A DNA stretch of 23,879 bases from a virus: the IMG/VR virus record IMGVR_UViG_3300040806_000881, positions 1 through 23,879 of that record. One strand, given 5' to 3'. Positions 3,905 to 17,010 of this stretch are shown piece after piece (the stretch's first letter is position 1; every line of letters starts with the position of its first letter). The notes beneath the pieces were generated by a model that saw nothing but the letters and a program-made list of their open reading frames with translations, was not told the DNA's origin and made no database searches. The translations under genes were made by a program, and so were the position numbers.

Positions 3905-4618
3905 TTAGAACTCCTGAGGTTGGGAGATGGTTAAAACGTGTGGATCGCTTCGTGTCTCTTGTAGTACGCCGCTTACAGTGTCCACTCGTGGCACCGATGC
4001 GATGTCATTCTGTGGAATTTCTGAGTTAATTTGAACTGTAAAGACCTTTCGGAAAATACGCTTGTTATATCCGGCTTCTTGATCCAAGAGGTCTGCCTGC
4101 CGCCAGTTTAGTAGATCGCAGCGACGGATGGTGCCATCTTCGGGTATTTCAATAAAACCCCGACGGAGAGGGAACACGTAGCGCAAAAGCGCTGCCGTCA
4201 TCTGGCGATCATGCCGCTGGCTACGGCAGTAGGTGGTTACTTGGTAGGTTAGATCTACTGGGACGAAGGACTCTATATGAATAAAGCCAGACGACCCAGC
4301 GATCTCGCTAAGTCCTGCGGCGTCGTATTCGGATGGGAAATAGTCCAGATACTTATTGTGTCGATCAGTGTCTGAGTCAGGGATTACAGTGTCGTTGGTG
4401 TAGTAGTAATCGACTTCTGAGTGCTGACGGTTACGAGCGTGATTGATATTGATCAACTCAATCGTGATAAACGGGTAAGACTTCTCGGTCTCTCCATCTG
4501 GGTAGCGGAAAAAGACCTTAGCCGTACGCTGTTGGTTGCGGTCGTCAGAGACATAGATGTTCTGGAGACGTGCCTTGAGGGCCGCATCTTCGGCAAGGGT
4601 GAAACCGGGATTAGCCAA
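3905..4618 (-). CDS. Putative tail terminator / tail completion protein
   Basis: 237 residues. The start is TTG at 4618, chosen because AGGAG (4630-4626) lies 7 nt upstream; the start overlaps the end of the preceding gene by 8 nt. The protein has mixed alpha/beta character with many polar residues: an N-terminal helix, then strands such as KSYPFITIELINI and FIHIESFVPVDLTYQVTTY, and a Met/Leu helix (QMTAALLRYVF). A protein that probably caps the tail and follows the neck genes directly before the sheath is normally the tail terminator. I recognise the pattern IxxTYQVxxYCRSxRHDRxM as resembling such proteins, but the assignment is mostly positional. Confidence 0.5.
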   Translation of the reverse strand: MANPGFTLAEDAALKARLQNIYVSDDRNQQRTAKVFFRYPDGETEKSYPFITIELININHARNRQHSEVDYYYTNDTVIPDSDTDRHNKYLDYFPSEYDAAGLSEIAGSSGFIHIESFVPVDLTYQVTTYCRSQRHDRQMTAALLRYVFPLRRGFIEIPEDGTIRRCDLLNWRQADLLDQEAGYNKRIFRKVFTVQINSEIPQNDIASVPRVDTVSGVLQETRSDPHVLTISQPQEF

Positions 4619-5009
4619 AGTTCAACTCCTCTGCCATTCTTTCTTTGAGGTCTTGGTTGAATTGGCTCTTGTTCTTTGCTGCAAAAGAGCGGATCAGGGG
4701 GTTAGGTGCCGACTCTGGTGTGCCATATTCCAGTTCAGTGATGTCGGGGGCACCGGCAACTGTGCCGTATTGGATCTGCCCGTCCTCCACACCGACCTTC
4801 AAGAAGGGGGCATACGCCATCCATTCGGCATCCATAACGGCGTCATACCGCATCTCGGTCGTTGCTGAGTCACTCAACTCCTCGATCAAGTCCTCAAGCA
4901 CGCCAACAAAGCCATTAGTGAACGCATCTAGGGCATCGGCTGTGCCGAAGTTACCGCTGATAAATGGCTTGATAGAACCAAGATCACTGTAAATCTGAGA
5001 AGCCCCCAT
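4611..5009 (-). CDS. Putative neck/minor tail protein (HK97 gp10-like)
   Basis: 132 residues from ATG 5009, with GGAGG about 7 nt upstream. The C-terminal part reads LEYGTPESAPNPLIRSFAAKNK and then a helix. A YGT...P-LIR pattern followed by a helix resembles the end of HK97 gp10-type neck/tail-completion proteins (EFGT...PFLRPA). The N-terminus is helical with an acidic LEDLIEELSDS segment. Its place between the stopper-like and terminator-like genes supports a head-tail interface role. Similarity to gp10 is by eye and weak. Confidence 0.4.
   Translation of the reverse strand: MGASQIYSDLGSIKPFISGNFGTADALDAFTNGFVGVLEDLIEELSDSATTEMRYDAVMDAEWMAYAPFLKVGVEDGQIQYGTVAGAPDITELEYGTPESAPNPLIRSFAAKNKSQFNQDLKERMAEELNFG
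4626..4630 (-). promoter_or_regulatory. Ribosome binding site deciding a TTG start
   Basis: AGGAG on the minus strand, 7 nt before TTG 4618, inside the 3' end of the upstream gene. No ATG or GTG with a comparable site lies nearby, so the TTG is the likely start of the terminator-like gene. Confidence 0.7.
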
Positions 5010-5043
5010 AGGCTTTCCTCCGTGGTTCTATGCGTTGTAAGGC

Positions 5044-5088
5044 GGTACTAGGCACACAGCGCTCGCTGCATACGCATACCATAGTACC
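5044..5088 (-). other. Structured intergenic segment with nested inverted repeats
   Basis: Between the stop at 5091-5089 and the next gene (start 5009) lies a 79-nt gap. It holds a perfect 7-bp inverted repeat, GGTACTA (5044-5050) with TAGTACC (5082-5088), enclosing CAGCGCTCGCTG (5057-5068), which can form its own short stem. There is no U-run, so it does not look like an intrinsic terminator; it could be an RNA processing or translation control element. It is the longest gap in the neck-gene region. Confidence 0.35.
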
Positions 5089-5628
5089 CTATGATGGGAA
5101 CGAAGTAGGCCAAGGAAGGTCGTAAACCTCAGGATTTCTGGGGCCGAATGAGAACGGCATCTCCTGATCTGGGAAGATTTCGTAACCAGTAATGGCAATC
5201 ACGGACTCACCACTAGGGTTATCCCTATTGAGGCGACCCGTTACACGGTATGAACGCACCTTGTAGTAGCGAGAATCGTACTCAAATACGTCGTTTAGGT
5301 GATCTTGGTATTCACGTGGGTTGCTAACACCCGCAGCCTGCATGTCCTTGAACAGCACAGTCGCACGGAGGTTTTGGGTGGGAAGTCGGCCATCGTCAAT
5401 GGCGCGGAACTCGTCCTCAACCTCTTCAACGTAGATGGTCGGGATAATCAAACCACGTTCGTATGTTTTGCCACCAATACCGGGGGCACCCTCGTCGTAC
5501 ACATCGTCGTACACGCTTCCACCAGAACCGAGGTTCTTGAACTCGTACCAGACAAGCGACTCCCCAGCCTCACGGTTGCGGTACCTAACGTGCTTATTGA
5601 TGAGGCTCAGTTCACGTCGGGGGTCCAT
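5089..5628 (-). CDS. Putative head-tail stopper / head closure protein
   Basis: 179 residues. ATG 5628 overlaps the stop of the upstream gene (TGATG), so it is translationally coupled. The predicted structure is beta-rich, with strands such as RGLIIPTIYVEEV, RATVLFKDM, RYYKVRSYRVTGRL and SVIAITGYEIF. Second gene of the neck cluster, it sits where the SPP1 gp16-type stopper is found. Stoppers form a ring under the adaptor and plug the filled capsid. No diagnostic motif is recognisable; assignment is by order and beta-rich composition. Confidence 0.45.
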   Translation of the reverse strand: MDPRRELSLINKHVRYRNREAGESLVWYEFKNLGSGGSVYDDVYDEGAPGIGGKTYERGLIIPTIYVEEVEDEFRAIDDGRLPTQNLRATVLFKDMQAAGVSNPREYQDHLNDVFEYDSRYYKVRSYRVTGRLNRDNPSGESVIAITGYEIFPDQEMPFSFGPRNPEVYDLPWPTSFPS

Positions 5629-6428
5629 CAGTACTGTCCTGTGGAGAGATAGCCGGGAGGCGGCTCACCGTCTAGGTATACCTCTTGACGAGTGTCGTCT
5701 GATTCCTCTTCGACATTGATAAGACCATCATCGATATCAGGCCATATACGCTCAATCGGGCCGTAGTCACCAACTTCACGCGGCTTGTACAGCGGTACGA
5801 GGCGATTGGTCGTGCGGCTGATTCGACGTAGGCTAACAACCTCCAGACGCTCCAGACCGATGTTGAGGGCCTGAGCACGTCGGTTGTACTCAGCAGACCA
5901 ATAATCAAGAAGGCTAGACACCATGCGGTAGCGCTGTGACGCCTGAATGTGGACTGACTCGGAGGTGATGACGTCAATGTCACGGCTGTACTCAGACAAC
6001 AGACCCCACAACGCCTGCACAAGTGTGTGGATACCAATGACGTCCGCTACAGCGGGGGCCATATTGGCGAGAGGCACCTTGAGGTTGTGCGTGTTGAGAT
6101 TGATCGCCATGTCAGCATAGAAATCCATGTCCTCGGGAAGCAACCACTCGTAGTAGTACCCCTCAACCATAAGGGTGTCCCCAGAAGACAACTGAGGCAC
6201 TAGCCGCACTAGACCATTACGAGCGTCTAGTTCGTACTGTGAGGTCAGCAACACCGATGCGGAAGACCCGCCTTGAGGAACGTATGCCACGTACAGGCTG
6301 TCGGCCTCCACGTTCGGCTTACCCAGATCATAGGACTTGCCCATGGGGACAAACGACTGTTGAAATGGCTTCTTGAAGTCCCGCAGATAGTTGCGGGCAG
6401 TTGTAATGATCTCTGCTTTAGTAGCCAT
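5628..6428 (-). CDS. Putative head-tail adaptor/connector protein
   Basis: 266 residues. ATG 6428 overlaps the stop of the collar-fibre gene upstream (TGATG). The N-terminus is helical (KAEIITTARNYLRDF), followed by a beta segment ending in VEGYYYEWLLPEDM, then a long helical part (about residues 120-200) with ADVIGIHTLVQALWGLL and YRMVSSLLDYWSAEYNRRAQAL. A helical bundle with a beta insertion in the first neck gene is consistent with the adaptor that docks below the portal (SPP1 gp15 or HK97 gp6 role). The C-terminal tail is acidic and Pro/Gly-rich. It is first of four neck genes but is separated from the capsid gene by the whole fibre block. Confidence 0.45.
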   Translation of the reverse strand: MATKAEIITTARNYLRDFKKPFQQSFVPMGKSYDLGKPNVEADSLYVAYVPQGGSSASVLLTSQYELDARNGLVRLVPQLSSGDTLMVEGYYYEWLLPEDMDFYADMAINLNTHNLKVPLANMAPAVADVIGIHTLVQALWGLLSEYSRDIDVITSESVHIQASQRYRMVSSLLDYWSAEYNRRAQALNIGLERLEVVSLRRISRTTNRLVPLYKPREVGDYGPIERIWPDIDDGLINVEEESDDTRQEVYLDGEPPPGYLSTGQY

Positions 6429-8497
6429 CAGTCCTCCCTAGTGAAGTACAGGGTGACTGTAAGCGGTCCTTCATCAGATGTATTTGCCGAATCGATATCA
6501 AATGTAAGCAGAGCGTCGTTAGCAATAGCGTTATCGCTGATGACTGCTGGCGTGGCAGCGGTCAACGAGGAACTTTCACCAACGTCAATCGTAATCTCCG
6601 TGCTGAGAACGCTAGTACCGCCCTCATTGACGTCGATAGTCACCGCATCGTTGGTGTTGGTACCGTTACGGTTTGCCTTAACAGCGGTGAGTGTTGCCGC
6701 CCATGGCATACGGTAGTACGCAGCACCCGCTTGGCTGGCGGGGAGCGCCCCAGAACCAGCGAGTTCGATGGTCACTACTTCTTCTCGTGCCTCGGAGAGG
6801 ATGTCTGAACCATCCTGTGCGGTAGCGTTGACAGTACCGGTTGCACGGATGAGCCAACGAACGTAGGTAGAGTCTGGGACATTTGTAAAAGGGGTGCCAG
6901 ATCCAGCACTTCCACTAGAGACGTTAGAAGCGCTAGTAGTCGGGTTCGTATTACCGGTATTCGCTGCACTGCTATTACCGGCGTTGGCCGTGTGACCATG
7001 GCTCCCAGCATCAGCCGCATTGCCAGTTCCGCTAAAGGTGTGTGAGTGGCTACCGCCTGAACTGGAGTTACCGCTCACATTAAGTGTGTGCGAGTGGTTG
7101 CCACCCGAGTCTGCGGAGTAGTTACCGTCACCGTGTGTGTGGTTACCAGAACTGGTCAACCCAAAACCATGGTAAGTGACTGCCATCCCTATGCCGGGGG
7201 CGGTATTACTGTAAGGAATGGCGTAGTATCCACCATCCTGAGATACATATGAGGTGCGTCTGGCGATCTCATACGATGAGTTGTTCCACTGAGCGTTCCA
7301 GTAACCTAGAGATGTGTGGTTGTGATTGCCCCCACCATCCGAGTTACCACTCACACCGTGAGTGTGCCCAGTGTGGGTGCTAGTAGTACCAGAGTAATTG
7401 CCGTCTGCGTGAGTGTGACCAGTGTGGTCACCGGTGTTACCACTAGCGTTAGTGTTGTGCCCATGGGTACCAGCAGCAGTAATAGAAACACTATGGTTGT
7501 GTGCAATCGTGTGAGAGTGGCTGACTGTGTGGGTATGCCCTGCCAACGTATGGGTATGGGCAGGCATGTTGGCAATACTCAGAGTAGTGGTGTCGTTACC
7601 TGTGTTATTGCCAGCGGTGTTTGCCGTAGTCGTACCCTTGAGGTGCTTAGCATTGAGATTAGGTAGAGCGAAGGTAGTGCTACCGTCGCCTGCGCCATAC
7701 TTTGTACCAAATACGCTGAACAACTCGCTGTACGTAGAACGAGATACTGTTTGTCCGTTGGCTTCCAGATAGCCAGTGGGGACGCTAGAGGTACTGAGCC
7801 ATGCGATTACGCTACCGACTGGGATTTGGGGGCCGGTGTTCTGAGCGAGTTCGATCCATGTACCCAGACTGTTCTTAACGTACACACCAGAGGCAGTCGT
7901 CCCCTCAGGAATGTTTGTGCGGTAGTACAGGCTACCCTTATAGCCCGCTCCAGCACTGGGAGCGGTGGTCCCTTGGTTGACGATGCTTGACGTCACCATC
8001 AGGCGACGGTCGGTAATACGGCTCGTCGTGATGTTCTGGGTACTTTGTCGGTAGATAGATGCCAGTACGACATCTGTGGAGAGGTCGATGTTTGTCAGCG
8101 GGTCAAACGTCGCCCCCGCAGCCAAGGTGTTTTGGCTCGGTGGGAACTCTGGGTTTGCCAACTCATCGTTACCGACGACGGTGGTCAGGTTAGCCGTCCC
8201 ACCTGAAACACGGACGACAATCAGGTCAAAGCGTGCGTCAGTAGGTGCGACCGGGAGGGCAAACGTCGACTGACCCGACACGATGTAGGGCTGTCCGGCG
8301 AGGACAACCACACCGCCCGAGACGGTAACAGAGGTGTTAGAAGCGGCGAGGGCAGTGACCTCACATCCTGAGACGACACCAGAATAGCCAGCATTACCCA
8401 GAATCTCAAAGTCCAGAGAGTCTGGTTCAGCCTGATCCAGATTCTGGTACTTTGCACCGCTAGCGGTGTCTGTAGCGTTGGGTATAATAAAGGCCAT
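6428..8497 (-). CDS. Tail fibre/adhesin with tail-collar domain and HxH needle
   Basis: 689 residues; ATG with GGAGG about 6 nt upstream. Residues 1-170 form an N-terminal attachment-type domain (RFDLIVVRV near 89 and a DRRLMV end). Residues 225-290 are a Phage Tail Collar domain (PVGSVIAWLS, PTGYLEANG, DGSTTFALPNL). Residues 314-502 contain twelve HxH motifs: eight before and four after a His-poor stretch at 395-452. In the T4 long-fibre tip (gp37), HxH motifs on three chains bind iron ions along a thin needle with the receptor-binding head at its end. The remaining C-terminal part (about 555-689) is a separate beta-rich domain with PWAATLTAVKAN and VLSTEITIDVGESSS, of a type seen in phage surface proteins. 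Likely a trimeric host-recognition protein. Confidence 0.85.
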   Translation of the reverse strand: MAFIIPNATDTASGAKYQNLDQAEPDSLDFEILGNAGYSGVVSGCEVTALAASNTSVTVSGGVVVLAGQPYIVSGQSTFALPVAPTDARFDLIVVRVSGGTANLTTVVGNDELANPEFPPSQNTLAAGATFDPLTNIDLSTDVVLASIYRQSTQNITTSRITDRRLMVTSSIVNQGTTAPSAGAGYKGSLYYRTNIPEGTTASGVYVKNSLGTWIELAQNTGPQIPVGSVIAWLSTSSVPTGYLEANGQTVSRSTYSELFSVFGTKYGAGDGSTTFALPNLNAKHLKGTTTANTAGNNTGNDTTTLSIANMPAHTHTLAGHTHTVSHSHTIAHNHSVSITAAGTHGHNTNASGNTGDHTGHTHADGNYSGTTSTHTGHTHGVSGNSDGGGNHNHTSLGYWNAQWNNSSYEIARRTSYVSQDGGYYAIPYSNTAPGIGMAVTYHGFGLTSSGNHTHGDGNYSADSGGNHSHTLNVSGNSSSGGSHSHTFSGTGNAADAGSHGHTANAGNSSAANTGNTNPTTSASNVSSGSAGSGTPFTNVPDSTYVRWLIRATGTVNATAQDGSDILSEAREEVVTIELAGSGALPASQAGAAYYRMPWAATLTAVKANRNGTNTNDAVTIDVNEGGTSVLSTEITIDVGESSSLTAATPAVISDNAIANDALLTFDIDSANTSDEGPLTVTLYFTRED
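6992..7558 (-). repeat. HxH repeat ladder encoded in fibre gene (12 motifs)
   Basis: Codes for residues 314-502 of the collar fibre. HxH motifs start at residues 314, 321, 327, 333, 345, 361, 378, 392, 453, 468, 484 and 500. The first four are 6-7 residues apart with a hydrophobic residue between; the others are about 14-17 apart in Gly/Ser/Asn-rich sequence. The gap at 395-452 encodes the presumed tip. Confidence 0.85.
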
Positions 8498-8509
8498 CTG
8501 GCCCTCCTA

Positions 8510-8522
8510 TATCAGAGAGTGT
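8510..8522. repeat. 13-bp direct repeat, copy 1
   Basis: TATCAGAGAGTGT on the plus strand; it overlaps the stop codon of the 8512-8760 gene. The second copy at 8783-8795 lies just upstream of that gene's start, so the two copies bracket the gene. Confidence 0.5.
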
Positions 8523-8760
8523 CGTAGACGTTGCCTGCCTTGACCAGATAGTTGTACAGGTCAAGAGGCAGGTCGTAGCGGTGACCGTCGATGAAATCCC
8601 ACTTAGTGGTACCCCAGTACATCGTCCACGTACCCTTGATCTTTGCGTTCTTCGTGGTGGGGGCGACGATGGTCGGCGCAGGCTTGGGGGCTGGGGCCGG
8701 TGCTGGTTCGTCCTCTTCGATGAGGAATTCTGCAATCTGGGTGGTCTTGTTGGTAGCCAT
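8512..8760 (-). CDS. Small hypothetical protein with Pro-Ala linker
   Basis: 82 residues from ATG 8760, with AAAGGAG 7 nt upstream. Residues 1-17 are polar/acidic, about 18-35 are an alternating Ala-Pro-Lys linker (PAPAPAPKPAPT), and the remainder (about 36-82) is a small aromatic-rich module (GTWTMYWGTTKWDF, then DLPLDLYNYLVKAGNVYDTL). I do not recognise a named family. Lying between two fibre genes and flanked by short direct repeats, it could be a small virion decoration protein or a movable module. An extended Pro/Ala linker joining a short N-terminus to a compact C-terminal domain suggests an attached, flexible domain. Confidence 0.6.
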   Translation of the reverse strand: MATNKTTQIAEFLIEEDEPAPAPAPKPAPTIVAPTTKNAKIKGTWTMYWGTTKWDFIDGHRYDLPLDLYNYLVKAGNVYDTL

Positions 8761-8782
8761 GTTGGTTCTCCTTTGACAGGTC

Positions 8783-8795
8783 TATCAGAGAGTGT
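8783..8795. repeat. 13-bp direct repeat, copy 2
   Basis: TATCAGAGAGTGT on the plus strand, in the 72-nt gap between the S74 fibre stop and the start of the small 82-residue gene; identical to 8510-8522. Some 13-mer repeats are expected by chance in 24 kb, so only the bracketing position is notable. Confidence 0.5.
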
Positions 8796-8832
8796 AGCAG
8801 GTGGATAATGGTTAGGGGGCGGACTCTATCGC

Positions 8833-10653
8833 TTACACGGCTTCCAGTTCAGCAATACGTGATTCAAGTTCACGCACATATTTGATGAGATGCTGAGTCA
8901 CGTTGATATGCTCTGTGTACAGGGCCTGAGTATCGACTGATTCAATCAATCTATCTTCAGAAAAACCGACCGCGTGCTCCCCATAAACGTCATAAACTTC
9001 CTCAGCAATAAAGTGAAGTCGATTTCGCACCTGACGATAGCGCGGGCATGGGTCTTCCTCGGTCCCATAACACCACCCTTTACCGCATACGTGCTCAATC
9101 CTGTCAGCCCTGTCATTGACGCACTTAGCAGCCTCGCACTCAAGACGGTTCTCATGCGTGTCGCATCCAACCCACCACTTATCATGCGGCTTATGAATTG
9201 AGTCGTATACAACAGGACGTAGCGAAACTAATTTATCAAAAGCGGCGTCTCTATCCGACGGCGCTATCCCCTCCACCTCATAGGCGTTCCTAATGTTCTC
9301 TTTGAGGCGCATAGTGGATGCACCGAAGGAACCATTATAAGTAACGCCACCAGTTCCGCATGAAAGTCGCCACACATTATCGACGTACAAAACAAGGTAG
9401 CCATTGTACGCAGCGACCATCTTAGTATTGTCGTAGTCCCTAGTTACCCCAATTGCAATTGCAGGGTCTAGAGCGTTCTGCCAAGAACACTCAATACCAC
9501 CAGTAGCGGAGCCGTACTCACTACCTAAATAGATTGCTCCAACGCCACCGTTACCGCCAGTCAGAATAACCTGACCGTTGCCACCGTCTGTTCTTAGGTA
9601 ACTACCGGCTATTGTGTAGCCAGAGGCATAAATGTTAGTTGCGTCAAGATAGCCCCTGACATCGATGGTATTTCCAGACTCTCCAAGGTACATCCTCTGA
9701 GAGCCGTCTTGACCGTACCAATGCTGCGACTGAAGTACATAGAAAGACGTATCCCACCTTGGTGCGCTAACTGAGTAAGAGTTTGTGTTGACAGAACTGG
9801 AGGTCATCCTCCCTCTAAAGACACCATTCCCAGACGAGTCAATTGTCAGGTTCTGGGTTGACGCTCGGTTCCTGAAGTAGTAGGTATCGCTGTCGACGTA
9901 GAACTGCCCGCTGTTGATGTCGAAGTAGGAGTTGCCGTAAGCGTCCTGTGGTCGCCAATAGTTAGATCCTCCAGCAAAAGAATTGGTGGAATTACCAGAG
10001 GCAATGTTGATGTTCCCGCTCATGGTGCCGCCAGACAACGGCAAATACGTTGAATGACTATGGCTATCGTCGGCTACAACGATTGCATTATATGTACCTG
10101 AAACATCACCGCCGAATGTAGTGGAGGTAGTTAAAGCAGTTGACGCATCTTGCTTTGTCGCAATGCTACTGGTGATAGTCGTAGCAAAGTTGGCGTCATC
10201 TCCCAGTGCTGCTGCGAGTTCATTCAGGGTATCCAATGTTTCTGGGGCGGTATCCACAAGGTTAGAAACCGCAGTATCCACATATGTTTCAGTAGCAAAC
10301 ACCTGAGCCGAGCCGCCGTCTGGCACCATGCTGACATTACTACCGTCATAAGAAATGACCATGCCACCGAGATCGATACTGTTACCAGAAAGGTACAGGT
10401 CACGGAACCTATACGTTGCCGAACCTAAGTCGTAGGTTACGTCTGTATCGGGGAGCAGTGAGCCAGACAACGACCTACTGCCATCTGCCAAGAGGTATTG
10501 GGTGTGGTCGTCGTCCTCTAAGCCCCCCAGTGTTCCGTGGTCAGAACCAGAAGACGTAACAAGGTTCCAGACAGTACCGTTCCATGTCCACGTCTTGTCT
10601 CCTAGAACAACCGTCTGCCCTACGGAGGGGGAATCAGGGAAGTCAATAGCCAT
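8833..10653 (-). CDS. Tail fibre with C-terminal S74 autoproteolytic chaperone
   Basis: 606 residues; ATG overlaps the upstream stop (TAATG). Residues 1-34 (FPDSPS, then KTWTWNGTVWN) match the N-terminus of the fibre at 10988-12370, a shared attachment module. Then come fibre-shaft motifs: DDDHTQYLLADGSR (47-60), ETLDTLNELAAALGDD (138-153) and YLPLSGGTMSGNI (203-215). Residues 446-606 are a peptidase S74 / intramolecular chaperone domain: STMRLKENI gives the catalytic Ser446 and Lys451 (Ser, then Lys five residues on, as in endosialidases), with HFIAEEV and a C-terminal coiled coil. The domain helps the fibre trimer fold and then cuts itself off before Ser446. Unusually, residues 497-536 form an insert with six cysteines. 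Codon and base use looks more AT-rich than in capsid genes. Confidence 0.88.
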   Translation of the reverse strand: MAIDFPDSPSVGQTVVLGDKTWTWNGTVWNLVTSSGSDHGTLGGLEDDDHTQYLLADGSRSLSGSLLPDTDVTYDLGSATYRFRDLYLSGNSIDLGGMVISYDGSNVSMVPDGGSAQVFATETYVDTAVSNLVDTAPETLDTLNELAAALGDDANFATTITSSIATKQDASTALTTSTTFGGDVSGTYNAIVVADDSHSHSTYLPLSGGTMSGNINIASGNSTNSFAGGSNYWRPQDAYGNSYFDINSGQFYVDSDTYYFRNRASTQNLTIDSSGNGVFRGRMTSSSVNTNSYSVSAPRWDTSFYVLQSQHWYGQDGSQRMYLGESGNTIDVRGYLDATNIYASGYTIAGSYLRTDGGNGQVILTGGNGGVGAIYLGSEYGSATGGIECSWQNALDPAIAIGVTRDYDNTKMVAAYNGYLVLYVDNVWRLSCGTGGVTYNGSFGASTMRLKENIRNAYEVEGIAPSDRDAAFDKLVSLRPVVYDSIHKPHDKWWVGCDTHENRLECEAAKCVNDRADRIEHVCGKGWCYGTEEDPCPRYRQVRNRLHFIAEEVYDVYGEHAVGFSEDRLIESVDTQALYTEHINVTQHLIKYVRELESRIAELEAV

Positions 10654-10985
10654 TATTCAGGTTCCAAGTACTCTGGATGAATGATGTAGATATCGGGGGG
10701 CGTAGGAATAACTACATTCTCAATGTCGTCTACATCGAGCATGTCACGAAGTTCTTGTCGATAAGTAGTCCACGCCTGCTTATCCTCGTCAGAGAGGGGG
10801 CTGTCATTTCCTACCGTCCAGTCTGTAGACGCTAGCCATGAGTTGCGGAAACCCCGAACAAATCTGGTCTTTTCCTCAGCATCCCATGGCGGATTGTCAT
10901 AGTCGGGATGAACACCATTAACGACATCCATATCTAACTTAGTGAGAAAGGTATCTACGTACGGTTTGATGTCTTCAAATGCCAT
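10653..10985 (-). CDS. Tail-assembly-chaperone-type protein (Phage_tail_APC-like)
   Basis: 110 residues. The core reads FRNSWLASTDWTVGNDSPLSDEDKQAWTTYRQELRDM: a short helix, an SDWT-type turn, then a helix with WxxYRQxLRD. This is the pattern of the small phage protein domain called Phage_tail_APC, frequently placed next to fibre genes in tailed phages. The C-terminus is Pro-rich with PTPPD. ATG 10985 starts 2 nt after the upstream fibre stop, and its own stop overlaps the next fibre's ATG, so all three are likely co-translated. A role in folding or assembling one of the adjoining fibres is the simplest reading; it has not been shown to be directly involved. Confidence 0.65.
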   Translation of the reverse strand: MAFEDIKPYVDTFLTKLDMDVVNGVHPDYDNPPWDAEEKTRFVRGFRNSWLASTDWTVGNDSPLSDEDKQAWTTYRQELRDMLDVDDIENVVIPTPPDIYIIHPEYLEPE

Positions 10986-10987
10986 GA

Positions 10988-12370
10988 TTACGCCTTGATG
11001 ATGTAGTTGAGAACGATGTAGGGCTGAACGATGGTGTGCGCCCCACCTGAACCTGTATTACCCAATGTTACCGTGTGATTATGGCTGATGCCGTGAGTGT
11101 GAGCCATGTTGTGCTTGTGAGTCAGATCGTGCGTGTGGTTGGCACTATTATTGCCGGTCGTCGTGTTGTGAGTGTGGTTAGCGCTCTGGTTACCGGTGTT
11201 GCCACTGTGAGAGTGAATGTTGTCCAAGTTGACGCCGCTGGTGTTGTGACTGTGGTTGGCATTAATATTACCAGTATTACCATGAGAGTGGTTGTAGTTC
11301 AGATTGGCGCTGTTCGTGTTACCCGTATACCACAACTGGATGTTGTAAGAACCTGACTGAACACGGAAACTTCCTGCCGAGTTGATGTACACATCTTCTC
11401 GTTGGGCAAACGAGGCGTTACCGTCAGAAATGCCGTGAGAGTGATTCCAGTCCAAGTTCACAGCGTTTGTTCCGTGACTGTGGTTAGCACTCTGCGTGTT
11501 GTTGTTATGCGAGTGGTTGTAGTTGATGTTGTGAGCGTTCGTGTTGAACGAACCGTGCGTATGGTTTGCACTATTGTTACCGGACGTACCGTTATGGGTG
11601 TGGTTCGCACTTTGATTACCAGTGCTGTTCTTGGCTGCGTTGTTGGTGTTATCCAACCCGGCACTCGTGTAAGTATTGGAGTTACCTGAGTTAGCGGTGC
11701 TCTGAGCGTTCGTGGCGGCGTTGTGGTTATGGCTGGGGATCTCTGACTCGGTCAGAGTGTGAGTCTTAGCACCACCGGTCTGTGCGAGGGTGGCGAAGTC
11801 ACCATCACCTGTGTCTAGGCCAACGGGGACCTTTCCTTTGAGGTTGGGGACGTTGAAGGTCGTACTGCCGTCACCGGAACCATACTGGTCGCCCACCACT
11901 GCATACAGTTCTGCGTACGTTGTACGGCTGACTGCTGATCCATCACACAGTAACCAACCTGTGGGGGCCGTTGCCCCAGCGTAGAGGCTGACTGAGCCGG
12001 AGGGCTGATAGGCAATGGGGTAATACGTGCTGCTGTCACCGCTGAACTCCCAGCGGTCATCAGTCTCGTTCCACCGGATAGTGGCGTTGTCAGCATCGCC
12101 ACGCTCAACCTCAATACCTGCGTCAAGCGAGGGCGTCCCCGTCTGCTCAGCGTTGAGGGTAATGATGTTGTCCTCAACCGTCAGTTGGGTGGTGGAGATA
12201 GTTGTGCTGGCCCCCTGTACGGTGAAGTCGCCTGTAACTGTCAGCGAGGGGAGGGCGGTCGGTACCTCAGCGGAAACACGCTTCCACACAGTTCCATTCC
12301 ACACCCATGTCTTACCGTCAAGGGTGTAGGACTCATTGAGGGAGGGGCTATTAGGAAAGTTAATAGGCAT
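10988..12370 (-). CDS. Tail fibre with tail-collar domain and HxH needle tip
   Basis: 460 residues; ATG overlaps the upstream stop (TAATG). Residues 1-33 are the same attachment motif as in the S74 fibre (FPNSPS, KTWVWNGTVWK). Residues 45-110 are a module known in cyanophage fibres (VEDNIITLN, DAGIEVERG, IRWNE, WEFS). Residues 122-190 are a Phage Tail Collar domain (PSGSVSLYAG, APTGWLLCDG, GDGSTTFNVPNLKGKVPVG). Residues 214-432 hold fourteen HxH motifs, interrupted at 313-360 by a His-free stretch. The end (VQPYIVLNYIIKA) is the strand that usually closes a collar domain. As in T4 gp37, the chain probably runs out along a metal-stabilised needle, forms a tip, and returns. Predicted receptor-binding protein. 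Confidence 0.87.
   Translation of the reverse strand: MPINFPNSPSLNESYTLDGKTWVWNGTVWKRVSAEVPTALPSLTVTGDFTVQGASTTISTTQLTVEDNIITLNAEQTGTPSLDAGIEVERGDADNATIRWNETDDRWEFSGDSSTYYPIAYQPSGSVSLYAGATAPTGWLLCDGSAVSRTTYAELYAVVGDQYGSGDGSTTFNVPNLKGKVPVGLDTGDGDFATLAQTGGAKTHTLTESEIPSHNHNAATNAQSTANSGNSNTYTSAGLDNTNNAAKNSTGNQSANHTHNGTSGNNSANHTHGSFNTNAHNINYNHSHNNNTQSANHSHGTNAVNLDWNHSHGISDGNASFAQREDVYINSAGSFRVQSGSYNIQLWYTGNTNSANLNYNHSHGNTGNINANHSHNTSGVNLDNIHSHSGNTGNQSANHTHNTTTGNNSANHTHDLTHKHNMAHTHGISHNHTVTLGNTGSGGAHTIVQPYIVLNYIIKA
11075..11731 (-). repeat. HxH repeat ladder encoded in fibre gene (14 motifs)
   Basis: Codes for residues 214-432. HxH motifs start at 214, 257, 270, 286, 297, 310, 361, 373, 386, 399, 412, 418, 424 and 430. 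Most spacings are 12-13 residues; the last four motifs are exactly 6 apart (HxHxxx hexads). The DNA is a degenerate repeat dominated by GTG-rich plus-strand sequence, which creates spurious Val-rich reading frames on the opposite strand. Confidence 0.85.
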
Positions 12371-12633
12371 TACAACAACTCATTGTCGGACTGTGCCTGA
12401 CGTTCAGCAGCAGACTGAATTTCAGCAGCAAGGACAACCTGTTCCTTGTTTGCTGGGATGCTGTCCACTTCTGGATCATTAGTCATGCGCTCAACCTCTT
12501 CTTGATAGATTTGGTCGATTGCCTGACGGCAACGGTTATGCACCGCATTGTCAATCCAGTCCTGAGGGTCGAAAGCGACGTAGCGAAGTGCCTTGTCCTC
12601 TGCGTCTGTGAGTGTAATTACGTACTCTGCCAT
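12370..12633 (-). CDS. Small hypothetical protein between fibre genes
   Basis: 87 residues beginning MAEYVITLTDAEDKALRYVA. The start is ATG 12633: AAGGAG (12645-12640) lies 6 nt before it and overlaps the stop of the upstream fibre. An in-frame TTG at 12651 lies upstream of that site and is unlikely. The protein is acidic and helical (YQEEVERM, then an Ala/Gln-rich helix AAEIQSAAERQAQS). Small proteins opening with this kind of ITLTDAEDKAL strand-helix are common next to phage fibre genes, but I cannot name a function. Its stop overlaps the ATG of the next fibre (TAATG), so the pair is coupled. It could be a fibre chaperone. Confidence 0.7.
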   Translation of the reverse strand: MAEYVITLTDAEDKALRYVAFDPQDWIDNAVHNRCRQAIDQIYQEEVERMTNDPEVDSIPANKEQVVLAAEIQSAAERQAQSDNELL

Positions 12634-12639
12634 ATTTGT

Positions 12640-12645
12640 CTCCTT
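12640..12645 (-). promoter_or_regulatory. Ribosome binding site deciding the start at 12633
   Basis: AAGGAG on the minus strand, 6 nt before ATG 12633, overlapping the TAA stop (12646-12644) of the C1q-like fibre gene. It argues against the longer TTG start at 12651. Confidence 0.75.
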
Positions 12646-14617
12646 ACCCAATCAGGAATCCACTAAACGAGTTCCAGTACTGACCGGCACTCATCTGATA
12701 GTTGGTGTCGGCACTATAAACACGTATTTCTGCATAGTCGTTAGCGTTCATACGCATAACAGCAGAACCACTTCTGTTTCTGTCCTGACTCGCTGTCGTG
12801 TATTGAGCACCCTGATAAAGCCTAGTTTGCTCAACACCATTCTTATACAGGGAAATGACAAACTGAGTAGCGTTCTGGCTTACGTCAACATTGTACACGT
12901 TGAGAGTCGTGTTGAATTGATAGTTACCTGTGACGGGAGCGACGAACCTGTAGTTGGAAGTGTTGTAGTTACCACCGCTATCAAACAGTTCAGAATTGAA
13001 TGACATGATACTCCAGCCAGCACCATGTGTAGGGTTAGAGCCGCTGCGATAAGCGTAGAAGCATGGCTGGTTCGGCATCGTGACAGTACCGTCCTGATAG
13101 GTACGCATAGCAACTACTTGTGCGCCAGCCTGAGCATCCATCTCAACATCGAAGGTGTTGTCGTTACCTGCGCCACTACCCCTGTATTTGAGCGTCATCC
13201 CGTAATCAGAATCAGTTGAGAACTGATCTGTGCCAACACGGATGATGTCAATATCGGTGTTCTCTGCGTCAATCCAGAACACAGGATTCGGGTTAGTGGC
13301 ACCAGCAACGTCGTAGTAAAAACTGTGACCAGTTCTCATGTTGATATCGCCGTCAACGTCTAATTTGTACGACGGGGATGTCGTACCGATACCGACATTG
13401 CCAGACGAATCAATCGTCATCCTGTCATTGGTGCCATTAGTCTGAAATCTAAGTCTTGCACCGTTGGGGTTGCGAAGAACAACGTCGTCAGGGGAACCGT
13501 AAGTCGAACTGCTGGGAGTTTCTTTGTACAAAATGTGCGAATCTGATCCGACGCGATCAAACATGATTCCATTGCCGACAGGAACAACTATGTCACCATT
13601 TACATCCAGTTCTTGACTGGGTGCTGTTGTACCGATGCCGACACGGCCAGAATCGTCAATACGCATACGCTCTGAGCCGTCGCTATTGAATATAATGTTT
13701 GTGCCAGCCTGTTCATTGTTGTAGTCAGCGTCAATAATCAGCGACCCAACACCTGAACTTGCGCTAATGCGAGATTCTGCGTTTGTGTCCGTGTCGGTGA
13801 AAATGAGATAAGGGGTTGAGTTGCTGATGTGTATGTCCCCAGCCACATCCAGTTTGTACGCAGGTGTTGTTGTACCGATACCTAGCCGATTGTTCGTATC
13901 ATCCCAAACCAGATTGCTGGCATCACTAGAGAACGTACCACCTGAAGCAAACTGGATAGCACCATCAGTACCAGAAGCAGCAGCACTCGCTGCACCGACC
14001 TCAACCCATTGCTGGCTAGAACCGTCGTCATAGTAGACATAGGTCTTTGCTGTGGAGGTATCAAACCATAGGTCACCGTTAGAGGGGCTGCTGGGGGCGG
14101 TGTCGCTCGTGGTCATGGCGATCACGCCAGCGGTACCTACCTCAACCCACTGCTGAGAGTCACCGTCGTCGTAGTAAACGAACATCGAACCGGTGTCGGT
14201 TTCGTACCAGAGGTCACCAGACTCTGGGTCGGCGGGGGCACCGTCAGAGGTGGTAACGCTTGCACCACCACCGCCAGAAGCGATCTCCCACGTGCTGTTG
14301 GTGCGGATATAGAGAAGGTTGTTAGTGGTATCGATGGCGAGGGCACCATCAGGAAGACTCAGCGTCGGCGTACCAGCCGTCGTAACCGTAATAATGCCAC
14401 CGTCTGCCTGAAGGGCATCGTCAGTCTTGAGGCGATCAGCAGCGTCACGATAAAGGTTGACATCGCCAGCAGCAGCACCACTACCCCAAACGACCTTGCC
14501 CCCAGCCTCAAACTTGATGCGGTCATTTGTATCTCCAGCAACAGATACGGCAACAGCATCAGATGCTGCTGATGCAAGATCCCGTACTGTAATGCCTGTA
14601 GTGAACTTCTGAGCCAC
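12644..14617 (-). CDS. Tail fibre with C-terminal C1q-like domain
   Basis: 657 residues from GTG 14617 (AAGGAC about 8 nt upstream). Residues about 122-161 and 168-208 are two copies of a module (GDLWYETDTG / GDLWFDTSTA, then YYDDGxSQQWVEVG). Three GIGTT-P motifs start at 246, 328 and 409, each followed by LDVxGDI, a shaft repeat of about 81 residues. Residues about 517-657 look like a C1q/TNF-type jelly roll: FVAPVTGNYQFNTTL, ISLYKNG, an alternating hydrophobic strand AVMRMNANDYAEIRVYS, and the closing SFSGFLIG. C1q domains form trimers and bind diverse ligands, so this is a likely receptor-binding head. The last third is richer in A and T than the first third. Confidence 0.8.
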   Translation of the reverse strand: MAQKFTTGITVRDLASAASDAVAVSVAGDTNDRIKFEAGGKVVWGSGAAAGDVNLYRDAADRLKTDDALQADGGIITVTTAGTPTLSLPDGALAIDTTNNLLYIRTNSTWEIASGGGGASVTTSDGAPADPESGDLWYETDTGSMFVYYDDGDSQQWVEVGTAGVIAMTTSDTAPSSPSNGDLWFDTSTAKTYVYYDDGSSQQWVEVGAASAAASGTDGAIQFASGGTFSSDASNLVWDDTNNRLGIGTTTPAYKLDVAGDIHISNSTPYLIFTDTDTNAESRISASSGVGSLIIDADYNNEQAGTNIIFNSDGSERMRIDDSGRVGIGTTAPSQELDVNGDIVVPVGNGIMFDRVGSDSHILYKETPSSSTYGSPDDVVLRNPNGARLRFQTNGTNDRMTIDSSGNVGIGTTSPSYKLDVDGDINMRTGHSFYYDVAGATNPNPVFWIDAENTDIDIIRVGTDQFSTDSDYGMTLKYRGSGAGNDNTFDVEMDAQAGAQVVAMRTYQDGTVTMPNQPCFYAYRSGSNPTHGAGWSIMSFNSELFDSGGNYNTSNYRFVAPVTGNYQFNTTLNVYNVDVSQNATQFVISLYKNGVEQTRLYQGAQYTTASQDRNRSGSAVMRMNANDYAEIRVYSADTNYQMSAGQYWNSFSGFLIG

Positions 14618-14633
14618 GACTCAGTCCTTTCTA

Positions 14634-14649
14634 AGGGGCCGCAACCCCT
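14634..14649 (-). other. Short hairpin between two fibre genes
   Basis: AGGGG (14634-14638) and CCCCT (14645-14649) can pair around a 6-nt loop in the 36-nt gap between two fibre genes, immediately before the Shine-Dalgarno site of the next gene. Only 5 bp and no U-run, so it is a weak candidate for translational control. Confidence 0.3.
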
Positions 14650-14653
14650 ATTA

Positions 14654-16087
14654 TCAGCCCGTGACGACGACTCGATAAGCGCTGGTATTGGGAGCCGTAG
14701 CGAACGTCACCGTTACGGTGTTCGTGTTCGTACGGACCACATCAGCGATCACCGTGTCATACGTCGTGTTGTCAAACACCTGAACGATCACATCCTGCGT
14801 ACCGAAGTAGTGATTCACAGCGAACGATGTATTACTGGAGTCGCCCACATCCACAGCGGCAACTCGTGCCAATGTAGTGTTGGCGTACCCGCTGGTAGTC
14901 TCAGCGAGGTTGTCACGAGCGTCGGCGGCGGTGCTGGCACCGGTACCACCGTGAGCCACAGCGACATCGGTAGCCTCCCAGACACCAGTAGAAACCGTGC
15001 CCAGCGTAGTGATGCTGGACTGACCGACGTAGTTAGAGTCAATGTCGACGGCATCTGCACTAACACTGATTCGGTTAGACGTACCACCCACGGCGAGGGG
15101 GCTACCGGCTCCACCTGTAAGACCATCGCCAGCCACCGAAGCGTTAAGGTGAGTTTCCGTGATACCAGCGGCCTTGACCTGAAGGTCATCAGCGCTGATT
15201 TCAAGCGTGCTGTCATCGACATTGACATCCAGCGTGTTGGCCTGTGTCCCGCTCTTTGAGAGACCTTCACCAGCCTCAATCTGGCCAGCGCCAGAGAACT
15301 TAGCAAAGGTGAGTCCCGTGGTATCAAGAGTGACTGTACCGTTGTTCGTCAGCACCCATCCACTGTCAGCGTTGGCATCACCCTCTTCAACAAAGGTGAA
15401 CAATCCGGGGGTGACCTCAGCGTCAGAATCAGCGTCGGTAGAACGGGTCCAGTTACCGCTGGTGCTAACGACGTAAATACCGTTCTCAGAAGAAGTACCT
15501 TGATCCTTGACTAGGATACGGTCACCATCAGCGAGAGAGACATTGTCTACCGTCGTCGTAGTGTTGGTCAGGGAGATGTCTCCAGTAGTAGCAACACGCA
15601 CCGAAGCCTTAACGTCTAGACCGGAACGTGCTGCATCGACGTACCCCTTGTTGGCAGCATCGCTGGCATCGGTGGGAGCGACAAGGCCGGTGACCTTGTT
15701 GGCCGTGATGTCGTTGGCGGCAAAGTCACCGCTGGCGTCGCGAATGACCAGACGAGAAGCCGTAGCAGCAGCAGTAGCGTTATCCAACTTGGTCTTGTCA
15801 ACAGCAGACATGAGACCATCGACCGAAGTCGTGGCGTTGTCAATGCTAAGACTGACAGCACCGTCAGAGGCGGTGCTGACGTTGAGAGCGGTGGTGGTGG
15901 ACGAGACCGAGGTGAGCAGAATCAACCACTCGGTACCGTCATAATACTTCAGCGCATCTTCGGCACTGTTGTAAAAGAGTCGACCTTCAAAGTTGCCCGT
16001 AGTCGGGTCAGTCGTGTCGGTGTGAAACTTGGCATTGACCAGTTCGTTCTGCTTGAGGTCAATATTTGTTAAAAATTGCTGTGCCAC
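14654..16087 (-). CDS. Tail fibre protein, beta-structured
   Basis: 477 residues from GTG 16087 with AGGAGGT 5 nt upstream. N-terminus MAQQFLTNIDLKQNELVNA is a known opening for tail fibres of actinobacterial and other phages, followed by a FYNSAEDALKYYDGTEW module (residues about 38-54). The middle holds NKGYVDAARSGLDVKASVR and then DGDRILVKDQ, ENGIYVV, FTFVEEGDANADSGWVL, a well-known fibre module; HGGTGASTAADARDNL follows. The C-terminal about 60 residues (VNHYFGTQDVIVQVF to SAYRVVVTG) form a beta domain similar to the end of the neighbouring 158-residue protein. It is first of the large fibre genes after the capsid. The receptor is unknown. Confidence 0.8.
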   Translation of the reverse strand: MAQQFLTNIDLKQNELVNAKFHTDTTDPTTGNFEGRLFYNSAEDALKYYDGTEWLILLTSVSSTTTALNVSTASDGAVSLSIDNATTSVDGLMSAVDKTKLDNATAAATASRLVIRDASGDFAANDITANKVTGLVAPTDASDAANKGYVDAARSGLDVKASVRVATTGDISLTNTTTTVDNVSLADGDRILVKDQGTSSENGIYVVSTSGNWTRSTDADSDAEVTPGLFTFVEEGDANADSGWVLTNNGTVTLDTTGLTFAKFSGAGQIEAGEGLSKSGTQANTLDVNVDDSTLEISADDLQVKAAGITETHLNASVAGDGLTGGAGSPLAVGGTSNRISVSADAVDIDSNYVGQSSITTLGTVSTGVWEATDVAVAHGGTGASTAADARDNLAETTSGYANTTLARVAAVDVGDSSNTSFAVNHYFGTQDVIVQVFDNTTYDTVIADVVRTNTNTVTVTFATAPNTSAYRVVVTG

Positions 16088-16097
16088 TACCGACCTC

Positions 16098-16574
16098 CTA
16101 AGTCAGATACGCAGTGCCAGAAAAGGGTGCTGTAAATTCAATCTGAATCTCACTTGTGCTTAGGTATGTTACCGTACCTACAACCACCGTGCCGGTCGAA
16201 TTGACCACGGTAACAGATGGGTAACCCCCTAGGTCATGTGTGATAGTCCATGTTGACGAGGCCGCTCCCTGAATGTACACATTGCGTCTCGTTATACCGG
16301 AAGCCTGAAAGAAGGGGGTTGCTGGCCACCCTGATTCAGTCTTAGGCCCATAAATGTAATAAGGCTCTTGGGTGAAAAAATAGTAGTCCCCTACGATACC
16401 CAAATCGTTAGTAGGAGGATTAATGGCACCGCTAATGAGCGATGAACCAGCGGCACCCTGAGCACCGGTGCTGAAGACCTCAATCTGGGTAGTGGCGTCT
16501 ATGACCTCAATTACGTTAGTAATAGGGTCTACGACGACTTCATATACCTCATTGAAGACTTCGACGTTACTCAT
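16098..16574 (-). CDS. Small tail-fibre-like protein
   Basis: 158 residues; ATG overlaps the upstream stop (ATGA). Residues about 1-35 are beta (VYEVVVDPITNVIEVIDATT), followed by a short collagen-like TGAQGAAGSS stretch. The C-terminal part (about 105-158) has STWTITHDLGGYPSVTVV, then VVVGTVTYLSTSEIQIEFTAP and FSGTAYLT. This HxLG-xP-V ... F-AxFSGTA pattern is a C-terminal domain frequent on phage fibre and appendage proteins and resembles the end of the next fibre. Probably a short virion appendage. Which partner it binds is not visible. Confidence 0.65.
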   Translation of the reverse strand: MSNVEVFNEVYEVVVDPITNVIEVIDATTQIEVFSTGAQGAAGSSLISGAINPPTNDLGIVGDYYFFTQEPYYIYGPKTESGWPATPFFQASGITRRNVYIQGAASSTWTITHDLGGYPSVTVVNSTGTVVVGTVTYLSTSEIQIEFTAPFSGTAYLT

Positions 16575-16927
16575 ATCCTAAATACGTCCGATCTGATGAC
16601 AAACGCACCCAGAAGTAGACGAGTCACTTCACCGCTGCTGGAGGTGAGTTCCAGTGTGTAGGTGTATTGACTCGGGGCGATATCCATATCATCTGCTGAT
16701 ACGGACAATGTGATAGTACCTGCATCACCACCGAGAGAGATGCGACCGTTAGCGGTGCTGAGGGTCAGCACAATGTTAATGGCAGTTGTCTTCTCTCGGA
16801 TAACCATCTCAGCGCTGTAGCCAGATAGGTCGATCAGGTTATTGTTAGCGTCTTTCCACTTGATGACCTGAGTGAACGTGGCACCCTTGTCAGCAGTGAA
16901 ACCATAGGTTGCCGCAAGTGCAGTCAT
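16571..16927 (-). CDS. Putative baseplate/fibre-associated beta protein (BppU-N-like)
   Basis: 118 residues, all beta-rich. It begins with a YGFTADKGATFTQVIKWKD strand pair, then LIDLSGYSAEMVIRE, and ends TYTLELTSSSGEVTRLLLG. The sequence GATFxxxIxWKDxxxNxIDLSGYxAxMxIR is the pattern of small phage proteins related to the N-terminal domain of baseplate upper proteins, which often sit beside fibre genes. It is first of the genes after the capsid hairpin and overlaps the next gene (ATGA). A likely adaptor that attaches a fibre to the virion, but direct evidence is lacking. Confidence 0.6.
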   Translation of the reverse strand: MTALAATYGFTADKGATFTQVIKWKDANNNLIDLSGYSAEMVIREKTTAINIVLTLSTANGRISLGGDAGTITLSVSADDMDIAPSQYTYTLELTSSSGEVTRLLLGAFVIRSDVFRI

Positions 16928-16950
16928 CGTTAGTCTCCTCTACAGACTGG

Positions 16951-16985
16951 AAAGGGACGGGGGCGCTGTGGCCCCCGCCCCTTCT
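16951..16985 (-). terminator. GC-rich hairpin downstream of the capsid gene
   Basis: On the minus strand GGGGCGGGGGC (16981-16971) pairs with GCCCCCGTCCC (16964-16954) over 11 bp with one G-T pair, around a 6-nt loop (CACAGC), then TTT. It lies 26 nt after the major capsid stop and before the fibre block. The U-run is only three bases, so it may be a partial terminator or an RNA-stabilising hairpin that lets capsid mRNA accumulate more than fibre mRNA. Confidence 0.6.
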
Positions 16986-17010
16986 ACCAGTACCTTAGTT
17001 GGCGGGTTTA

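Follow-up and report, generated by a model that had tools for sequence, protein, structure and literature searches.

The window, meaning the whole stretch of DNA analysed here (23.9 kb), carries on its minus strand the structural module of a phage with a contractile tail, in the order portal, scaffold-like gene, major capsid protein, fibre block, connectors, sheath and tube, followed by the beginning of the tape measure. Its capsid protein is 60% identical to that of Streptomyces phage BRock, with which the window is collinear for portal, capsid, connectors, sheath and tube, so that an actinobacterial host is possible. In the region 3905-17000 the fibre genes are flanked by the capsid gene on one side and the head-tail connector genes on the other, which is unusual for tail fibres; the equivalent slot of the same module in BRock holds gp141, annotated as a tail fibre.

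Two of these genes encode collar-needle fibres, which we call A and B (Table 1). Full-length relatives of fibre A occur in loci L003, L004 and L005, and a relative of fibre B, 72% identical, in L004. Profile searches matched only collar and general tail-fibre families, and the collar domain that the sequence-only reading had assigned to both proteins was recovered in each. A further scan for needles like that of B returned a near-identical fragment only.

Table 1. Features of the two collar-needle fibres and of neighbouring genes in the window.
Feature	Position	Strand	Basis
Fibre B, 689 aa, collar-needle fibre with extra C-terminal domain	6428..8497	-	ORF; PF07484, E 1.6e-18
B collar domain, residues 230-283	7649..7810	-	PF07484
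B base cluster, outgoing arm, residues 314-335, HxH every 6-7 residues	7493..7558	-	
B outgoing needle arm, residues 345-394, four HxH rungs	7316..7465	-	
B His-free tip, residues 395-452	7142..7315	-	HxH scan
B return needle arm, residues 453-502, four HxH rungs	6992..7141	-	
B collar-closing strand, residues 541-552, PDSTYVRWLIRA	6842..6877	-	Position and sequence
B C-terminal domain, residues 553-689 (137 aa)	6431..6841	-	After closing strand
606-aa fibre	8833..10653	-	Body replaced in L004 and L005
Chaperone-like tail-fibre assembly gene	10653..10985	-	PF16778, 6.7e-11; directly after fibre A
Fibre A, 460 aa, collar-needle fibre	10988..12370	-	ORF; PF07484, E 3.4e-23
A N-terminal module, residues 1-34	12269..12370	-	53% identity to 606-aa fibre, E ~1e-9
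A collar domain, residues 125-182	11825..11998	-	PF07484
A collar-exit HxH, residue 214 (IPSHNH)	11723..11731	-	Motif scan
A outgoing needle arm, residues 257-312, five HxH rungs	11435..11602	-	
A His-free tip, residues 313-360	11291..11434	-	Positional match to T4 gp37 932-959 (PMC6957217)
A return needle arm, residues 361-414, five HxH rungs	11129..11290	-	
A base cluster, return arm, residues 412-432, HxH every 6 residues	11075..11137	-	
A collar-closing strand, residues 449-460, QPYIVLNYIIKA	10991..11026	-	C-terminal end of A
657-aa fibre with C1q-like end	12644..14617	-	Flanks fibre A

Both fibres contain long ladders of HxH motifs. In fibre A these lie at residues 214, 257, 270, 286, 297 and 310 and, beyond the tip, at 361, 373, 386, 399, 412, 418, 424 and 430; in fibre B they lie at 314, 321, 327, 333, 345, 361, 378 and 392 and, beyond the tip, at 453, 468, 484 and 500. 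The totals of 14 and 12, as the sequence-only reading had counted them, compare with a mean of 3.7 in 2000 composition-preserving shuffles of the ladder stretch of either protein (maximum 11 for A and 12 for B). The HxH-free breaks also fall where they had been placed. That each ladder is interrupted once proved right as far as the tip break is concerned, but A has a second HxH-free stretch, from 214 to 257; because residue 214 is a collar-exit motif separated by this gap from 257, the A ladder is not strictly interrupted once.

Fibre A ends, as had been claimed for the 460-residue protein, in a collar-closing strand, QPYIVLNYIIKA, which is invariant in four relatives and matches T4 gp37 residues 1010-1026 in position. 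The closing strand of fibre B is not terminal: STYVRWLI at 543-550, where AlphaFold2 placed a weak strand at 548-551, is followed by the C-terminal domain. This domain is the most conserved part of B (91% identity to L004), and it is matched in phages of Rhodobacteraceae, Sphingomonas and Microcystis.

The T4 gp37 tip, whose structure is known (PDB 2XGF), comprises the D10 collar and the D11 stem and tip; the halves of the collar are residues 811-881 and 1010-1026, the tip (932-959) lies within a gap in the HxH motifs, and seven irons are arrayed along the needle (PMC6957217). Like fibres A and B, it combines a collar and a closing strand with HxH motifs along both arms and a single tip free of His. 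A chain that turns back at the break must have stretches of matching length from collar to break and from break to closing strand. T4 gp37 served as the structural control, and the sequence rule places its arms around the HxH gap 929-966. Outgoing and return arms measure 46 and 51 residues in T4 gp37, 96 and 88 in A, and 78 and 88 in B; the needle lies between the collar and the closing strand (449-460 in A, 541-552 in B), where the arms of the family end. Among non-redundant phage ladders the two arm lengths correlate, with r = 0.75 (n = 29) or r = 0.77 (n = 32), and the mean difference between them is 11 residues, versus 81 when the tip is assigned to a random gap (0 of 5000 placements as low).

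Close relatives that differ in arm length tend to differ almost equally on both sides of the tip. The changes in outgoing and return arms are 12 and 12 residues between A and L005, 12 and 11 between L078 and L097 (81% identical), 2 and 2 between L112 and L137 (82%), 25 and 25 between L112 and L152 (74%), and 12 and 13 between L117 and L118 (75%). Over 126 changed pairs with at least 50% identity, which are not independent of one another, these changes correlate with r = 0.95. Leaving aside the collar-exit and base motifs, A and its L004 relative have 5+5 rungs and the L005 relative 4+4, and in many ladders the spacings of one arm exactly mirror those of the other, as in L112, where spacings of 11, 11, 13, 13 and 13 occur on either arm. 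The exceptions are the longer, 14-motif protein of L118, which breaks the arm rule, and L085, which shows an unmatched change relative to its relatives; we read these, without proof, as a misplaced tip and a lost rung. The matched arms of relatives constitute good evidence for the predicted hairpin needle fold, and an antiparallel, out-and-back course of the A and B arms over matched lengths appears well supported. We further consider it somewhat more probable than its negation that collar-needle fibres across phages lengthen or shorten their needles by whole HxH rungs (≈11-13 residues, or 2), with both arms altered at the same level.

To describe how the motifs of the two arms would combine, we merged the arms with one free stagger, fitted by minimising the variance of the tiers, and fitted the shuffles likewise. 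The merged tiers are spaced 7, 7, 7, 9, 9 and 7 residues in T4 gp37; 7.5, 5.5, 6.5, 4.5, 8.5, 7.5, 5.5, 7.5, 5.5, 6, 6 and 6 in A without its collar-exit motif; and 7, 7, 8, 9, 7, 9, 7, 5, 6, 6 and 7 in B. The stagger that fitted best was -7 to -7.5 for T4, A and B, -7 for L005 and -9.5 for L004. Compared with shuffles of the in-arm spacings, tier evenness gave P values of 0.017 for A, 0.009 for B and 0.35 for T4 alone, the last not significant, although the evenness is partly by construction because the stagger was chosen by variance minimisation. The even tiers of A and B fit a collinear arrangement of the motifs of both arms. Fibre A carries its base cluster on the return arm and fibre B on the outgoing arm; either cluster lies opposite an HxH-free stretch of the partner arm (in A, 412-432 opposite 217-256), as one tier per axial step would require. 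The base of T4 gp37 is arranged alike, with 980, 989 and 998 opposite the gap 885-915.

Both fibres thus have a collar, a closing strand, an HxH ladder, a single tip, matched arms and even merged tiers. We estimate a probability of about 0.85 that they are trimeric collar-needle fibres built like the gp37 tip, running out and back with metal-pinned tiers. The chain would exit the collar, go out along a thin needle, form the His-free tip and return to close the collar; the HxH pairs of the two arms would interleave into an axial row of ≈13 (A) or 12 (B) histidine tiers, predicted at roughly one per 5-9 residues. We infer a trimer whose needle would be pinned by metal, probably iron, at one ion per tier, and in which the tip would be the likely point of contact with the host surface and bind a receptor. 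The out-and-back, gp37-like layout proposed from sequence alone is upheld by the matched arms, the mirrored rung spacing, the ≈7-residue stagger and the T4 positive control. AlphaFold2 monomers of the needles had mean pLDDT values of 38 (A, 14 sequences) and 41 (B, 9 sequences), a very low confidence, so direct structural support was not obtained from them.

HxH motifs are also found in spikes and needles that run one way, such as the Sf14 spike (PMC11821841), and A and B could on that ground be parallel trimeric β-shafts with metal sites, the His-free break being an insertion without a turn. Nothing in such a shaft predicts that the arms flanking the break should match in length and co-vary or that their spacing should be mirrored, and the closing strand must in any case come back to the collar; this reading is already largely refuted, and we consider it very improbable. 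We give just as little credence to the idea that the histidines merely belong to a low-complexity linker rich in N, S, T and H with no metal role. N, S, T, G and H are indeed abundant in the arms, but the HxH motifs occur far above shuffled expectation, their regular spacing is matched between arms, and in T4 mutating H929/H931 abolishes function (PMC6957217). No array turned up in a search of the DNA for tandem repeats, which excludes fresh slippage as the origin of the ladder.

As judged from their sequences, A and B add two longer members to the gp37-type collar-needle fibres already known. They share with T4 gp37 the matched arms, the ≈7-residue stagger and closely spaced HxH motifs on a single arm opposite an HxH-free stretch, and differ from it in having arms about twice as long and 14 and 12 motifs rather than 7, in their unrelated tips, in needles without sequence similarity and, in B, in the further C-terminal domain. 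The collar fibres of the cyanophages Synechococcus phage Sf-FR1 and S-T4 likewise have a collar and one central break, with 15-17 HxH motifs in mirrored spacing, but their spacing is more regular (13 or 10 throughout) and their tips and N termini are different. The best match of known structure is the long tail fibre gp34 of Anabaena phage A-1(L) (PDB 8KEC; E 7.6e-15 with B); the match to A and B is limited to the collar and the start of the ladder, and the attachment domain is different. The authors of that work likened the fibre arm to T4 gp37 (PMC10966104). The same likeness has been drawn for two HxH fibres with fewer motifs than A and B, gp12 of Alteromonas phage R22Y (six motifs; PMC11705849) and gp23 of Burkholderia phage E094 (seven; PMC8174754), and the parts of these reports available to us contain no analysis of arm-matching.

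The sequence-only reading had also described A and B as paralogues and set their 14 and 12 motifs against the seven iron sites of T4. The kinship stands at the level of the collar superfamily, whereas close paralogy does not: A and B have only the collar in common (43% identity), and in a collar tree, where 59 of 84 other collars are nearer to A than B is and 26 are nearer to B than A is, they are not sisters, so we rejected them as recent paralogues. Nor are their motif counts exceptional, for S-T4 and L139 have 17 and Sf-FR1, L086 and L087 have 15. Beyond the immediate relatives of A, the collars nearest to its own include those of L133 and L110, proteins with a single HxH motif, which indicates that ladder length changes quickly in the collar family.

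A location of A and B on the head or neck instead of the tail is suggested by the gene order, with the fibres between capsid and connectors, by the slot shared with BRock gp141, and by a 477-aa neighbour that matches a head-decoration family. We think it unlikely: a tail-fibre assembly gene comes after A, and in the 56-kb relative G001 no further collar fibre was found downstream of the baseplate genes, which makes A and B the likely adsorption fibres of the phage. A role of their tips as fast-evolving host-range determinants is suggested by analogy with T4, in which tip residues contact LPS and OmpC (PMC6957217), and by the lack of any match to either tip among 50,697 phage records. The prediction that the two inserts would be variable host-specificity segments was not supported: tip and needle identities are similar in every available relative, an outcome that the sequence-only reading had itself named as refuting, though it is seen here in few sequences: the A tip is 52% (L004) and 60% (L005) identical against 52-84% for the A needle arms, and the B tip 64% against 56% and 64% for its arms. 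With only three distinct A and two distinct B sequences, the power of this comparison is low, and it says merely that excess tip variation is not visible. Such a role for the tips is doubtful also because neighbouring fibres have been swapped while A and B stayed whole.

The 657-aa fibre is identical to its L003 counterpart for 150 residues and then unrelated over the C-terminal two thirds, whereas the genes around it share 96-100% identity with those of L003; the counterpart (L003:1337-3103) has an unrelated body with a chaperone-like tail end, which points to an adhesin exchanged recently. The swap involves the near-identical L003/L058. In L004 and L005 the 606-aa fibre is retained only up to residue ≈70-110 and replaced beyond. 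The likeness of its first 34 residues to the N terminus of fibre A suggests a common attachment module. Exchange of host range is better sought in the 657- and 606-aa fibres than in the needle tips, which suggests that these neighbours, rather than the tips, are the variable adhesins.

That the arms should match is a consequence of the T4 structure; we did not find this matched-arm rule stated in the literature searched, which lacked most subscription journals, and its novelty is uncertain. Calibrated on T4, matched arms provide a sequence-only test for gp37-like hairpin needles where no structure exists, and they locate tips without alignment. If needles do change by matching rungs, the arms would stay in register with one histidine tier per ≈5-9 residues, and sequence alone would give the position of the tip, the length of the needle and the number of metal sites. 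It would also pose an evolutionary question, open to test, namely how two segments far apart in a single gene come to gain or lose matching rungs in step.
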